Assembly (NCBI RefSeq): GCF_016599855.1
Contig: NZ_CP067041.1
Coordinates: 558,001 to 622,000 of the forward strand
DNA: 64,000 nt
Direction of reading: 5' to 3'
Source of the DNA: Bradyrhizobium diazoefficiens
Lineage (GTDB): Bacteria; Pseudomonadota; Alphaproteobacteria; Rhizobiales; Xanthobacteraceae
Of the stretch, positions 34,154 through 40,895 are shown in pieces; position 1 is the first letter of the stretch, and every line of letters starts with the position of its first letter. A program made the position numbers and the translations under genes. The notes beneath the pieces are model-generated. The model saw nothing but the letters and a program-made list of their open reading frames with translations. It did not search any database and was not told the DNA's origin.

Positions 34154-35488
34154 TCACCCCGCCACGATCTCTCCCGCCTCCGCCCCCGTCGCCAGCTCCG
34201 CCCCCGGCGCCAGCGGCATCGGCACCGTCACATAATCCTTCGGCAAATTCACCGGCTGATAGTCCGGCTCCACCGCCATCCGCTTCACCACGCTCTCATG
34301 CACATGCGCGCCTTCGGGGATCACGCGCGGTTCGCAATCGGGGATGTAGTGGCCAAGCACCACCTTGCGGTCCGGCCATTCCTTGTACTTCACGTTCTTC
34401 GGCAGATATTCCAACACGCGCCAGGGCAGCGTCATCGAATTGTGCAGGATGCCGGTCTTGCCGGTGTAGGCCGGTTCGACATAGCTGAACGGCGAGTTCT
34501 TGCGCTGAACGCCCCAGGCGAGCTGCTTCACGGTGCTGGGGTTGAAGTGCAGCCCCGCCTTCGTCGCCTCGTCGATCATCCAGATCAGCGGATATTTCGA
34601 CTCCGCGCTCTCGGCCTCCGGATAGCCGCCGCCGACATCGCAATGCACGCCGGCGAACCACACCTGCAGAATGTCCTGCGGCACCTTCTTCTCATCCGGC
34701 ACGTAGCGGTTGCTCCAGTACTCCTGCGGCTCCTCGTACTCTTTCAGGCGGAACATGCAGCGCCGCTCGTCGATCGCGATCGCCTGGCGGAAGATGTTGA
34801 CGCTCGGATTGCGCAGCGTGAAGGCGAGCTCCTCGAGGCTGAACACGAGGAAGAAGACGTCGCGCCGCGGCACGATCACGCTTGCCACCGTGTCCCAGAC
34901 GCCGATGAAGTGGATGGTGGGCCAGCGGGTCGAGGTGATGCGCGCGAACTGCGCGGCAAGGTCGAACTCGTCCTTCGGCAGCGGCCCCTGCTCGTCGACA
35001 TCGATGTTCTTGAGGTCCTCGACGTCGTTGCCGCGCCCGGTGCCGGAATATTGCTTGTAGGCGACGAGGCCCGACCCTGCGAGGTTGGCCTGCTCCGGCG
35101 AAATCAGCCCCACCTTGTGGATCAGCCCCGCCAGCACGCGAACCGTGTAAGCACCGCGCGAAAAACCGAACAGATAGATGCGGTCGCCGGGCGCGTAATG
35201 CTCGATCAGGAAGCAATAGGCTGACAGCACATTGTCGTCGAGCCCGTAGCCGGTGGCGAGCCCCAGCACCAGCTTGACGTTGGCCTTCCACCTGTTCCAG
35301 GTCGACGGCTCCGTCACCGTGCCGACGCCGGGATCGTAAAACACCATCTGCCGCGGACGCGTCCTGTCGGTCTTGCGCAGGCAGCGATAGAGCTTCAGGA
35401 CGTTGGAGATGTTTTCCGAAATCTCGTTGCCGGTGCCGTCGCAGCAGATGACGAGGTTTTTCGGTTCGCTCGTGCCGATATGTTCCAC
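34154..35488 (-). CDS. DUF2235 alpha/beta-hydrolase domain protein
   Basis: A 444-residue protein of the DUF2235 family, which has an alpha/beta-hydrolase fold and includes Tle1-type phospholipases. Visible are LVICCDGTGNEISENISNV near the start, the nucleophile elbow GFSRGAYTVRVLAGLI with Ser110, an Asp in IGVWDTVASV and a late His in CDVGGGYPE context. No signal peptide, vgrG, paar or immunity gene is nearby, so there is no evidence for a secreted effector. The role is therefore open. Confidence 0.85.
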   Translation of the reverse strand: MEHIGTSEPKNLVICCDGTGNEISENISNVLKLYRCLRKTDRTRPRQMVFYDPGVGTVTEPSTWNRWKANVKLVLGLATGYGLDDNVLSAYCFLIEHYAPGDRIYLFGFSRGAYTVRVLAGLIHKVGLISPEQANLAGSGLVAYKQYSGTGRGNDVEDLKNIDVDEQGPLPKDEFDLAAQFARITSTRWPTIHFIGVWDTVASVIVPRRDVFFLVFSLEELAFTLRNPSVNIFRQAIAIDERRCMFRLKEYEEPQEYWSNRYVPDEKKVPQDILQVWFAGVHCDVGGGYPEAESAESKYPLIWMIDEATKAGLHFNPSTVKQLAWGVQRKNSPFSYVEPAYTGKTGILHNSMTLPWRVLEYLPKNVKYKEWPDRKVVLGHYIPDCEPRVIPEGAHVHESVVKRMAVEPDYQPVNLPKDYVTVPMPLAPGAELATGAEAGEIVAG

Positions 35489-37333: not shown

Positions 37334-37612
37334 ATGACCATCACCAGCGGCCGCTTCATCGGCCACGAACAGGACCGCGGCATCATCCAGTTCTCGATGC
37401 AGGACGGGTCCAGGGAGATCCCCTGCGCGATCTCGACCTCGGCAATGGACGATCTCGAACGCGGCGCACATGCCCGCCCCGAGCAGCGCGAAGCCCAATT
37501 CATCCGCCTCCGCGACCGCATCGAAGCAAGAGCGGCGAGCAAGTACCGCGCGACCGAGTTCGAGGGAACGCCGCCGGGAATCGTGCTGCGGAGCATTGAT
37601 TTTCGGGGGTAG
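37334..37612 (+). CDS. DUF1488 family protein
   Basis: A 92-residue protein with CAGGAG upstream of ATG 37334. It carries the DUF1488 pattern CAISTSAMDDLERGAHARPE, then RLRDRIEARAASKY and the closing EFEGTPPGIVLRSIDF. The family is of unknown function and frequent in rhizobia. It marks the left border of the lower-G+C cassette that follows. Confidence 0.82.
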   Translation: MTITSGRFIGHEQDRGIIQFSMQDGSREIPCAISTSAMDDLERGAHARPEQREAQFIRLRDRIEARAASKYRATEFEGTPPGIVLRSIDFRG

Positions 37613-37707
37613 GGGGCGGCCGCAGTTCTGCTCACGGTTCTAGGCATGTCGAGGCTTGGTCACGCCGAAGAACGATTATTGAGTTCGTGAGGATTACTCA
37701 GCCAGCT

Positions 37708-38766
37708 TCATGTTACGACTTTGCGTCCGCCAGCAAATACCCAAACAAGAAACGCGACGAACTCGTCGAATATCTCTCTCCAAGAGTTCGTTCTGGTTGC
37801 TTGTCTTAAGATCGACCAGCTTTGGCCATGGGCAGCCATCTGGTCAAAAACTCTGTTCCCGAATCCACTCAAAGAATGCACTTCAATATCGATATTAATG
37901 ACGGCGAGCTTTGCTCGCAACCAAGCGCGATCTGCGTCATTACCGATCTTTGCCGCGTTTGCGGGGCAGATGCCCTCTTTCAAATCGGCATAGAGCCAGA
38001 ATGATTGCCGTACGTCGTGTCCTAATTTGCCCTCCTCCTCCGCTAGGCTGAGGTAATGATCCTTTGATGGGTTGCTAATCCCGCTTTCGAGTTGAAAGAC
38101 CACATCCATTGGCAAGCAGTTCTCAGCTTCGCGACATGGTGGAGCAGATGAGAATGCACACGGCCAGTTCATTTCGGTCGCGATTCTTCCTAGTTTCTCA
38201 AGCTTAGCAACGGGCTCAGAGCTCGGAGCAAGCCTATCCGTATCTACAATAGCGCAGACAACGCGTCGTTGATTTATCTGTTCAATGAAAACGGTGGGTA
38301 GATCCGATCCTCCGCCGTGCATGGGAACATATGCTGGTGGTGGGCAAGCGTGCAGATCGTGATGGTTTCTCAAGAGTTCTCCATACAAGACACCATCGCG
38401 GGCAATGTTCTCGACGAGGAGGATAGATCGATCAGTTATCTTGGCCTCTACCAGTTTCCTAAAGCTTACCTGGATTGCGCGATCATCTGCTGCGACTGCC
38501 CCGCTTGGGGATACCAGAATGTATCTTTTGGCAACGCGAGGCAAACTGGCCCTTTGCGGATGCTCAAAGAGTATGCGTTCGAGCATTGCTTTTTCGGCCC
38601 GAGACAGGTCTGCGTTTTCAATTAGAAATCTGCAAATCTCTCGTGAAATGATGACGACGTGATCGCCATTTCGATGTGCTCGAAGCAGCAGTCTTACCGT
38701 TTCGTCTCGAACGTCAGCGTCGCATTGTCGGATGTGCGAAAGTTCGCAGTGCAAATAAAAGATCAT
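37708..38766 (-). CDS. Putative TOPRIM/DUF4435-like nuclease partner of the adjacent ATPase
   Basis: A 352-residue protein not recognised by name. Residues 115-220 show a pattern like the TOPRIM/DUF4435 core: ILLVEN with Glu119, HGGGSD at 150-155, then VCAIVDTDR with Asp175 and Asp177, then REAENCLP with Glu213, Glu215 and Asn216. In OLD-type nucleases such acidic residues bind metal for DNA cleavage. The N-terminal 100 residues form a separate domain with MIFYLHCELSHIRQCDADVR. Its ATG lies one base after the ATPase stop, so the two are coupled. G+C is lower than in the flanks. The nuclease assignment is an inference from spacing of motifs. Confidence 0.6.
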   Translation of the reverse strand: MIFYLHCELSHIRQCDADVRDETVRLLLRAHRNGDHVVIISREICRFLIENADLSRAEKAMLERILFEHPQRASLPRVAKRYILVSPSGAVAADDRAIQVSFRKLVEAKITDRSILLVENIARDGVLYGELLRNHHDLHACPPPAYVPMHGGGSDLPTVFIEQINQRRVVCAIVDTDRLAPSSEPVAKLEKLGRIATEMNWPCAFSSAPPCREAENCLPMDVVFQLESGISNPSKDHYLSLAEEEGKLGHDVRQSFWLYADLKEGICPANAAKIGNDADRAWLRAKLAVINIDIEVHSLSGFGNRVFDQMAAHGQSWSILRQATRTNSWREIFDEFVAFLVWVFAGGRKVVT

Positions 38767-38767
38767 C

Positions 38768-40375
38768 TCAATCGACTGTCGGTTGAAAAAATCCGTAAGG
38801 CCAGTCTACAAGTTCGCCAGCTTCGTTGAAGGAAGCCGTTCGTACTGTGGTGACATGCTCGCCGGATGGATGTGGTTCGAAGAGAAGAATCTGAACATCT
38901 CTGTGATTCAAGCTGCCTGAGTGAACCAGTTCTCCTAATCGGTTGATCAATGTCTCACTGTGTGTTTCGACAAGAAAATTGATCTTCGAGCCGAAGCGGC
39001 CACCGCTCTCCGGAGAAAGCCCTACTTCGCCCACCAAAGCGTCGGCCAAAAGCGCTTGGTGGGCCGGGTGCAAATGCAACTCTGGTTGTTCTATGGCTAA
39101 TAGCGAGAATGGCGCTTGTCTCGATGGAGTTGCTGACATCGGTCGGGAACGCGCCCACCAGATTTGAGCGAGGACGGGTAATATCTGGGAGACTCCATAG
39201 CCCGTATCAACGATGTTGGAGATATTGCCTTTCGCTGTGAGGTTTATGCTTATGTGCCCGCCCTCGCGGTGGAGCGAAATCCCATACTCAAAGAGTTCTT
39301 CGATCCATTCGGACAGCTTTCTGAACTGATAAGAAGAGAGCGAGTTCAAGAACATCGGGAAGTTCTTCCCGTCAGGATCAATTTCAGAGACAGATAAGTC
39401 TTGATATCGATAATAGCGTTCGCTTCGCGCTCGTGCAGGACCAATGTAGAGAACATTAGAGAGTATGTTTCTTAGTTGTAGGTCGACGCGCTTTAGAAGA
39501 TCAGAAAGTGCGATTGCCGCACATACGGCTCGAATTTTTTGGAACAGGGCTGGCTCTCGGCCAGACGCCAAATCGGCGACGAAACGTCTCCATCGCGTGC
39601 TGTTTGTATTTTGAGCCGCGCGCATCATCCTGGTGGGCGAAAATGCTCGAGCCGAGAGCAATTCGGTCACCGCATCTAATAATACTTCTTCCTTAAAATT
39701 CCTCGGAAGATGTGGACGGATCAATCGCATCAATATCGGTACAAATTCGCCCTCAGTACGTCGCCGTCGCGTAACGGCTGCTGTTTCGCTGTCGCTGCTG
39801 ACAAACAGTATCTCTGGAAGGATGGTTCCTGGTGTTATCTGCAGCCCCAGGGAGCCAAAGTCGCGAAGTGCGTCGACTCCGTCTATCCTCAGCTCTGAAA
39901 CTTTTTGTCCAGACGAAACTCGCAGCTCGAAACTGATATCAGGATCAGCAGAAGTGAGAGACAGGCTAGTGACATTAGTGCGGGCTGCTTCGCTAGGTCC
40001 AATGGTGTCCGCAGGGCCAATCACTACGTCTAAAGCAACTGTCGTGTAGTCGGCCGGTATTGTTTCCAGTGGTCCATCGTCCGTCCAAAAGTAATCGGGC
40101 TCGATTTTGATTTCGTCGAAGACGAATGAGAAGCATATCTCCTTCTGCTGGCTAGGACTTGAAACTGCTGTCGAATAGGTCCCGAAATCCACAAGGTCGC
40201 CGTACCAGAGAATGGGTGAACTGGTACGCGTCATCAGCGATTGGCGCAGAAGCGGAAACAAGCGCAAGAATGAACTTTTGCCGCTGCTGTTTCTTCCTAC
40301 CAATAGAGTTATCGGCTTTAGCTCGACGGGTGAAACGTCTCGCAGGCGACGAAGGTTTTTAATGCCGAACTGCAA
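38768..40375 (-). CDS. ABC/OLD-type AAA ATPase with DUF3696-like C-terminus
   Basis: A 535-residue SMC/RecF-like ATPase. It has Walker A GRNSSGKSS at 27-35 and the ABC signature region TGYGVSQILPVLAQI at about 391-405. Walker B LLAIEQPELHLHPAHQ is at 425-440, and the switch histidine VETHSETLINRL at about 469-480. It ends in ELVDWPYGFFQ, typical of DUF3696-containing ATPases. There is no fused TOPRIM domain; that function may be supplied by the next gene. The start is TTG at 40375, with no in-frame ATG or GTG upstream before a stop. Low G+C (about 48% in one 60-base sample) suggests recent gain. Role in phage defence or repair is inferred. Confidence 0.82.
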   Translation of the reverse strand: MQFGIKNLRRLRDVSPVELKPITLLVGRNSSGKSSFLRLFPLLRQSLMTRTSSPILWYGDLVDFGTYSTAVSSPSQQKEICFSFVFDEIKIEPDYFWTDDGPLETIPADYTTVALDVVIGPADTIGPSEAARTNVTSLSLTSADPDISFELRVSSGQKVSELRIDGVDALRDFGSLGLQITPGTILPEILFVSSDSETAAVTRRRRTEGEFVPILMRLIRPHLPRNFKEEVLLDAVTELLSARAFSPTRMMRAAQNTNSTRWRRFVADLASGREPALFQKIRAVCAAIALSDLLKRVDLQLRNILSNVLYIGPARARSERYYRYQDLSVSEIDPDGKNFPMFLNSLSSYQFRKLSEWIEELFEYGISLHREGGHISINLTAKGNISNIVDTGYGVSQILPVLAQIWWARSRPMSATPSRQAPFSLLAIEQPELHLHPAHQALLADALVGEVGLSPESGGRFGSKINFLVETHSETLINRLGELVHSGSLNHRDVQILLFEPHPSGEHVTTVRTASFNEAGELVDWPYGFFQPTVD

Positions 40376-40481
40376 ATTGGTTTGCCTATTCTTTGCTGCT
40401 GATTGAGTTTAGCCTGTTCACAACTACCGATTTATGGGCAGAATGCTCGGTGATGACAATCCTGTTTTTTGTTTGCACCCC

Positions 40482-40516
40482 AAAAACAAAAACGGCCGGA
40501 TCTTCCGATCCGGCCG
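40482..40516 (-). terminator. Rho-independent terminator of rpmB
   Basis: CGGCCGGATC-TTCC-GATCCGGCCG is a perfect 10-base stem with a 4-base loop at 40493-40516. On the minus strand it is followed by TTTTTGTTTTTGGGG. It lies downstream of rpmB and upstream of the ATPase gene on the same strand. Confidence 0.85.
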
Positions 40517-40589
40517 CAACGCAAAACTCTACTCGGCTAAGCCTACGCCACGCGACGCAACTTAGCCCCCGCCCGATTCCAAAACTCGC

Positions 40590-40895
40590 TTAGCTGGCCT
40601 TCTTGACCGGCGCGTCGCCGACCTTCTTCTGGATGGCGCGCTTCAGTTCGAGCGCGCGCGGCGATAGGGCGTCGGCCTTGGCCTTGAGCAGGAAGGCATC
40701 GAGGCCGCCATTGTGGTCGACGCTCTTGACCGCGTTGGTCGAGACGCGCAGGCGCACGTTGCGCTCCAGGGCTTCCGAGATGAACGTCACGTTGACGAGG
40801 TTCGGCAGGAAGCGGCGCTTGGTCTTGATGTTGGAGTGGCTGACCTTGTGGCCGACGAGGGGGCCCTTGGCCGTCAGTTCGCAGCGGCGAGACAT
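40590..40895 (-). CDS. rpmB: 50S ribosomal protein L28
   Basis: A 101-residue L28 beginning [20 protein letters not shown], with the family pattern [16 protein letters not shown] and [19 protein letters not shown]. The single cysteine at position 5 is not a zinc-binding set. The C-terminal 25 residues ([20 protein letters not shown]) are a common alphaproteobacterial extension. It ends with a strong terminator at 40482-40516. Confidence 0.97.

Follow-up and report, generated by a model that had tools for sequence, protein, structure and literature searches.

What is the function of two coupled genes of low guanine + cytosine (G+C) content that adjoin an rpmB-like gene in Bradyrhizobium diazoefficiens? 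The window, i.e. the whole stretch of 64,000 nucleotides analysed (contig NZ_CP067041.1, positions 558,001-622,000, of a 7.1-Mb single-contig genome), encodes on its minus strand an OLD/SMC-type ABC ATPase (38768..40375) followed by a putative TOPRIM-type nuclease, the candidate effector (37708..38766), which a first-pass annotation of the same DNA had proposed to be an anti-phage or DNA-repair cassette. The pair is probably a two-component anti-phage system in which the ATPase would gate a two-metal nuclease, probably of the abortive-infection type. The observations behind this proposal are the partnership of the two genes, a conserved catalytic set, a fold assignment reached along three lines, the insertion of low-G+C DNA at a variable site where relatives have known defence genes, and carriage among phage structural genes.

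The coordinates confirmed the annotated layout, with a 352-residue protein beginning (ATG) a single base (38767..38767, minus strand) past the ATPase stop (TGA), both open reading frames (ORFs) being intact. A scan of species genomes with an ATPase profile returned at least 568 relatives, and the loci examined comprised the best 80 and five from viral contigs. The co-occurrence for which the annotation had suggested a neighbourhood survey was borne out: in 81 of the 85 loci a first pass with the effector profile already hit the following gene (weakest E 1.5e-4), a second effector profile, built without the remaining four, recovered L052, L065 and, as two pieces, a broken copy in L020, and in L089 the sequence ends 248 bp past the ATPase gene at a contig edge. 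Overall, the effector gene adjoins the ATPase in 84/85 loci, one copy being broken. ATPase and effector distances were correlated (r 0.77; 0/1000 permutations), as shared descent would also produce. Among loci with a named phylum, the hosts span 11 phyla. In a quick tree with Shimodaira-Hasegawa-like approximate likelihood ratio test (SH-aLRT) support, the window pairs with G231 of the same genus (100) within a 12-row clade (99), which also contains all five copies from viral contigs, those of the L009 prophage and of a Ruegeria megaplasmid, and copies from alphaproteobacterial genomes. That the ATPase and the effector belong together as a pair is thus supported.

Conservation was assessed on an alignment of 81 pairs, the window's own and those of 80 of the 85 loci. 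Left out were L020, L089 and the three loci in which the ATPase ORF is incomplete (L079, L080, L091). The ATPase (535 residues, TTG start) has a Walker A motif at about G32-K33-S34 and a Walker B glutamate at E432, with K33 and E432 kept in all 81 pairs. Its Pfam scores exceed the cut-offs for AAA_15 (69 bits against 32.1) and AAA_21 (49.6 bits against 27), in line with the ABC/OLD-type ATPase originally described; for the C-terminus, the wording "DUF3696-like" is fair because the DUF3696 score (17.8 bits) sits under the cut-off of 22. Compared by VIA, its AlphaFold model scored 13.1-13.5 with OLD/GajA and the fold is also Rad50-like, so that, as modelled, it is of the general Rad50/SMC/OLD-like type.

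The effector is less easily placed. Alone, it had no match up to E 1 in Pfam, PADLOC, NCBIfam or PDB sequences, and a profile of 57 family members retrieved two PDB rows, both at chance level. No relative was confirmed in viral contigs, in phages (with the L009 effector as query) or in genome contigs (with the effector profile). The AlphaFold model has a predicted local distance difference test (pLDDT) score of 90.4, and the top rows of its VIA structure comparison are OLD TOPRIM regions. When small effector profiles were compared by hhalign with DUF4435 and OLD sets, the TOPRIM motifs aligned, more clearly than with a single sequence, and reversed-sequence controls were clean; the DUF4435 set comprised four rows, one of them (L105) under the Pfam cut-off and two near-identical. 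The hallmark of TOPRIM nucleases, an invariant glutamate with a DxD motif, is present as E119, D175 and D177, aligned to the TOPRIM motifs of both sets. Each of these lines is modest, and their mutual agreement supports assigning residues ~109-350, TOPRIM plus a helical part, to a predicted TOPRIM nuclease. An extra N-terminal domain of 108 residues precedes this core in the window protein (family median 126 residues through E119). The first-pass reading of an ATPase split from a TOPRIM-like protein with an additional N-terminal domain therefore holds in its core, with the domain at ~108 residues. Of its "TOPRIM/DUF4435 core", the TOPRIM half stands; DUF4435 was matched by 0/57 effectors, and the likeness to it is placed in the motif pattern because no member matches by sequence. 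These and the other family-wide tests covered 57 effectors, with matches listed up to E 1 and, for Pfam, HMMER filters on.

The acidic residues named from the sequence proved strongly conserved: E119, D175 and D177, together with G153, are invariant in the 81 pairs, E215 is kept in 80 and N216 in 75. Position 124 is aspartate or glutamate in every pair, E213 is found in 61 and K263 in 74, and all six catalytic positions (E119, D124, D175, D177, E215, K263) are kept in 74/81. In Bp OLD, metal A is described as bound by E400, D455 and D457 and metal B by E404, T506 and E508, with K562 critical (PMC6755086); in the same enzyme, single substitutions made no visible difference and triple substitutions eliminated cleavage. 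The effector has the same residue order (E119, D124, D175-x-D177, E213-x-E215, K263), a correspondence based on motif order and alignment rather than residue-level superposition. E119 and D124 are separated by 4 positions in 69 pairs, as are E400 and E404 of Bp OLD, and by 5 in the remaining 12, to which the window belongs.

For gating, trigger, substrate, cell death and metal roles we infer the following scheme. The ABC ATPase would act as sensor and gate, keeping the TOPRIM protein inactive until, on sensing infection, it releases or activates it. The freed protein would work as a two-metal-ion nuclease, with E119, D175 and D177 coordinating metal A and D124 and E215 metal B, by correspondence with Bp OLD, and K263 standing in for the catalytic lysine. 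It would then cut a nucleic acid needed by both phage and cell, with host RNA (tRNA, as for AriB) a slightly likelier target than DNA (as for GajA/OLD). The effector residues do not discriminate between the two substrates, because DNases and RNases alike use this set. A Gabija- or OLD-like action, in which relief of the ATPase from nucleotide inhibition lets the effector nick or degrade the DNA of phages or plasmids, has in its favour that the best structural rows are OLD DNases, that the catalytic order is that of Bp OLD and that the ATPase fold resembles GajA and Rad50; it appears unlikely, though far from negligible, given that the same residues operate in RNases (AriB, RNase M5), that no helicase partner is present and that the effector is a separate protein.

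The separation of the two proteins is what distinguishes the pair from several known systems. OLD nucleases (class 1 or 2) and Gabija GajA share the ATPase fold type and a TOPRIM with the same catalytic residue order; there, however, a single polypeptide carries both, whereas here the ATPase and TOPRIM residue sets lie on two proteins. Gabija further differs by its helicase gene (GajB, UvrD-like), absent from the insert, where the interval holds two ORFs only. Septu is set apart by its HNH partner (PtuB), the partner protein here matching none of the Pfam families up to E 1. The ATPase also matches the PADLOC model NsnB (8e-38); the Nsn names are those we take to denote Menshen (NsnA/NsnB/NsnC), a literature search on them having found only other meanings. 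A predicted OLD nuclease component has been reported for Menshen (PMC10952713), from which the pair differs in that the insert contains no third gene (DUF262) and no NsnC-named model was among the PADLOC matches of the 57 effectors.

PARIS is the closest precedent in layout, and with it the first-pass statement that no nameable system matches falls. It is also the nearest analogue with an elucidated mechanism, and the pair would work in a similar way. As described, the AriA hexamer keeps AriB inactive until phage triggers free it as a dimer, and AriB is a two-metal TOPRIM cutting host tRNAs (PMC12409363); a review presents PARIS as having ATPase and TOPRIM on separate genes, unlike other OLD classes (PMC10568477). 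The pair resembles PARIS in having an ABC ATPase gene directly followed by a TOPRIM nuclease gene, in the TOPRIM glutamate and DxD motif, and in mobile-element carriage (PMC9122126, PMC12409363). Published detection of two-gene PARIS uses an AAA_15 or AAA_21 ATPase (32 / 27 bits) with a DUF4435 partner of at least 27 bits (PMC9122126); the ATPase of the pair passes the former thresholds, but the pair is not filed as PARIS because DUF4435 was seen in none of the effectors. The PADLOC AriB model was matched by 2/57. It is conceivable, if doubtful, that the pair is nevertheless a divergent PARIS in function, with an ATPase sensing DNA-mimic anti-restriction proteins and a tRNase released as a dimer. 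Besides the missing DUF4435, this is opposed by the ATPase, which scores higher with PDC-M55A (its best PADLOC model; 1.9e-40, 137 bits) and NsnB than with AriA, and by the extra ~108-residue N-terminal domain of the effector, the AriB match in 8ux9_A starting at residue 15.

PADLOC lists the ATPase family under the candidate PDC-M55 (models PDC-M55A and PDC-M55B, without library description). PDC-M55B was matched by 39/57 family effectors (best 1.3e-13), whereas the window effector itself matched no PADLOC model up to E 1 and counts as divergent within the family. No paper naming PDC-M55 was found in the literature searched, so that we know of no function for it. Likewise, no published function was found for the family of the pair, which papers outside the search may mention, and searches combining DUF3696 and phage returned nothing relevant. 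OLD-ABC ATPases that have a TOPRIM or another nuclease as partner have been described close to BREX genes in a 2026 survey (PMC12839542). The family is best read as a sister of PARIS, separate and widespread, that overlaps PDC-M55.

The genomic setting of the pair is that of an insertion. Its G+C is 50.6% against 63.6% for the window, a value equally low in only 2/614 stretches of the same length, and the sample counts given in the first-pass annotation (29, 29 and 40 of 60 bases) are exact; G+C at third codon positions is 0.52 and 0.50 in the two genes and 0.92 in the neighbouring rpmB-like ORF. That gene (40590..40895, minus strand; ribosomal protein L28, named by eye without a family search) is the conserved right-hand neighbour anchoring the slot. 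The pair alone occupies a variable interval of 2,854 bp (37626..40479; G+C 50.3%) with flanks conserved in relatives: of four relatives compared, three lose homology on the left at 37615-37625 (the fourth aligning on the right side only), all four regain it on the right at 40480-40485, and other DNA lies between the flanks. The DNA of the right flank was found in 140/146 genomes of the genus.

The slot was sampled in 44 relatives (these four and 40 well-matching ones, L175-L218), rare cassettes being defined by ORFs of at least 120 residues with G+C of at most 0.58, present in at most 4/45 loci and located before the first common gene. Such a cassette occurs in 42/44 relatives, amounting to 104 ORFs in 84 clusters. 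At 1e-20 these ORFs matched 181 PADLOC families, against 3 for 140 control ORFs from other taxa, figures that describe the kind of content and not a rate because the control is unmatched for genus and one gene can trigger many models. Among the 25 families listed, LmuB had 5 members, LmuA, NsnA, AriA and GajA 3 each, and GajB, IetA, PDC-S21 and a type II methyltransferase 2 each. One insert (L175:4527-7090) is a retron Ec67-type reverse transcriptase (RT)-Toprim gene (PADLOC 3e-217; PDB retron Ec67 4.7e-104). Two Pfam OLD-type TOPRIM matches fall in the slot by coordinates, on G123 contig 29 (L201) and G130 contig 73 (L206); L201 matches GajA in PDB (8.7e-10), and for L206 the matches are confined to other ATPases of OLD-like and Rad50-like type. 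The slot may be a genus-wide defence hotspot; a literature search on Bradyrhizobium and rpmB found no paper with "defense hotspot".

Within the genus the pair is patchy. Counting its own genome, the effector occurs in 3/265 genomes of the genus and 3/397 of the order, and the ATPase in 2/257 of the genus (E<=1e-25) and 2/337 of the class (E<=1e-40). A role of the pair in chromosomal DNA repair or recombination is very improbable in view of this rarity, the low G+C and the unrelated cassettes that relatives carry at this site; an adjoining housekeeping gene would suit it, as would the Rad50/SMC/OLD-like ATPase fold, and beyond that general fold nothing favours the repair half of the first-pass proposal, leaving its anti-phage half as the probable one. 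In G060, one of the three genomes of the genus counted for the effector, a 303-residue ORF (L008:10114-11025) corresponds to the last two thirds of the effector, preceded by a short stretch resembling, by eye, the ATPase Walker B region; no ATPase gene was detected with this remnant, which was read as a decayed copy of the pair.

Mobility is also apparent across the loci of the family. Pair G+C is under flank G+C in 74/78 loci, by at least 5 points in 66, and is never 5 or more above it (pair span approximated, 7/85 loci unusable and a wrong ORF taken for L052). Cargo carried among phage structural genes is often defensive (cf. PMC9122126). Phage structural operons carry the pair at two differing positions: among head genes in L009 (8206-15002), between a head-tail adaptor gene, with one unassigned ORF intervening, and the major head protein gene; and among tail genes in viral contig L097 (4632-12465), flanked on one side by the gene for a tail assembly chaperone and on the other, past two small ORFs in reverse orientation, by the tape measure gene. 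Integrase and primase genes lie upstream of the pair in L098, and the Ruegeria sp. TM1040 megaplasmid copy has two annotated integrase genes. With the variable slot, the two phage insertions provide the defence context sought for the cassette. A coupled two-gene cassette could also be a toxin-antitoxin-like stabilisation module without an immune role, the ATPase being the antitoxin; the description line of AAA_21 reads "putative AbiEii toxin, Type IV TA system", and one AbiEi match (0.0015) was obtained among the 57 effectors. This is nonetheless improbable, as the gene order runs from sensor to nuclease, as in PARIS, and known defence genes at the same site in relatives and phage carriage also speak for immunity.

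Several points weigh against the anti-phage interpretation. The VIA Z of the effector borders on chance by the tool's own note, a designed Rossmann protein ties in the same rows (7.4, 99 aligned), and Foldseek of the model against PDB gave no row at E<=0.001. The effector profiles reached low hhalign probabilities of 26% and 7%, and comparing a single sequence with two DUF4435 proteins gave weak results (P 0.022 and 0.36). As to context, the PADLOC control for the slot was drawn from other taxa, and the defence enrichment of flanks outside the genus is mild: at 1e-10, 150/153 flank ORFs yielded 161 families and 140/152 same-contig control ORFs yielded 7, but one restriction gene triggers many models and only 3 families were matched by more than one flank ORF. 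Pfam families of flank and control ORFs (25 listed each) are mostly ordinary in both sets.

More tentatively, and with the balance tilting slightly against it, the pair could represent a split-OLD immunity class spanning at least 11 phyla, in which an SMC-like ATPase gates a TOPRIM protein bearing its own regulatory domain at the N-terminus and whose trigger and target differ from those of PARIS and Gabija; the genus would swap such systems at the rpmB slot, a main plug-in site for immunity. If the anti-phage interpretation is true, a broad family (at least 568 ATPase relatives) can be tested as an immune system whose catalytic residues are named, and the ATPase/TOPRIM separation known from PARIS exists in a second widespread family. 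This would help to split common traits (gate, two-metal cutter) from specific ones (trigger, target, extra domain), and the rpmB slot would offer a one-site-per-genome source of candidate defence systems in a genus holding plant symbionts.

Concerning the insertion site, no common word of 9 to 20 bases was found between the insert edges (37560-37720 and 40376-40560), no tRNA gene in the 64-kb window, and only a single Rfam row near the pair, far under the gathering threshold and read as chance. Fragments that resemble the beginning ("NLVICCDGTGNEISENISNVLKLYR") of a conserved gene (window 34154-35488) adjoin inserted cassettes, apart from the gene itself, at L175:4029-4439, L177:5561-5830 and L212:5856-6110, and are perhaps scars of cassette exchange. 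The retron-type gene of L175 adjoins a second low-G+C ORF, DUF3800-like by eye. L178:3323-7010 contains three low-G+C genes of 409, 176 and 647 residues (hydrolase-like, small and SMC-like), a trio that is Lamassu-like by eye; LmuA/LmuB matches were reported by PADLOC for the set, the member not being specified. A recurring cassette (L179:4721-7014, L195:4060-6351, L216:1611-3916) forms the largest similarity cluster, with 5/104 ORFs, whose products start like "TFTVDTxLFRELGELLVG" and resemble, by eye, an HSP90-type ATPase.
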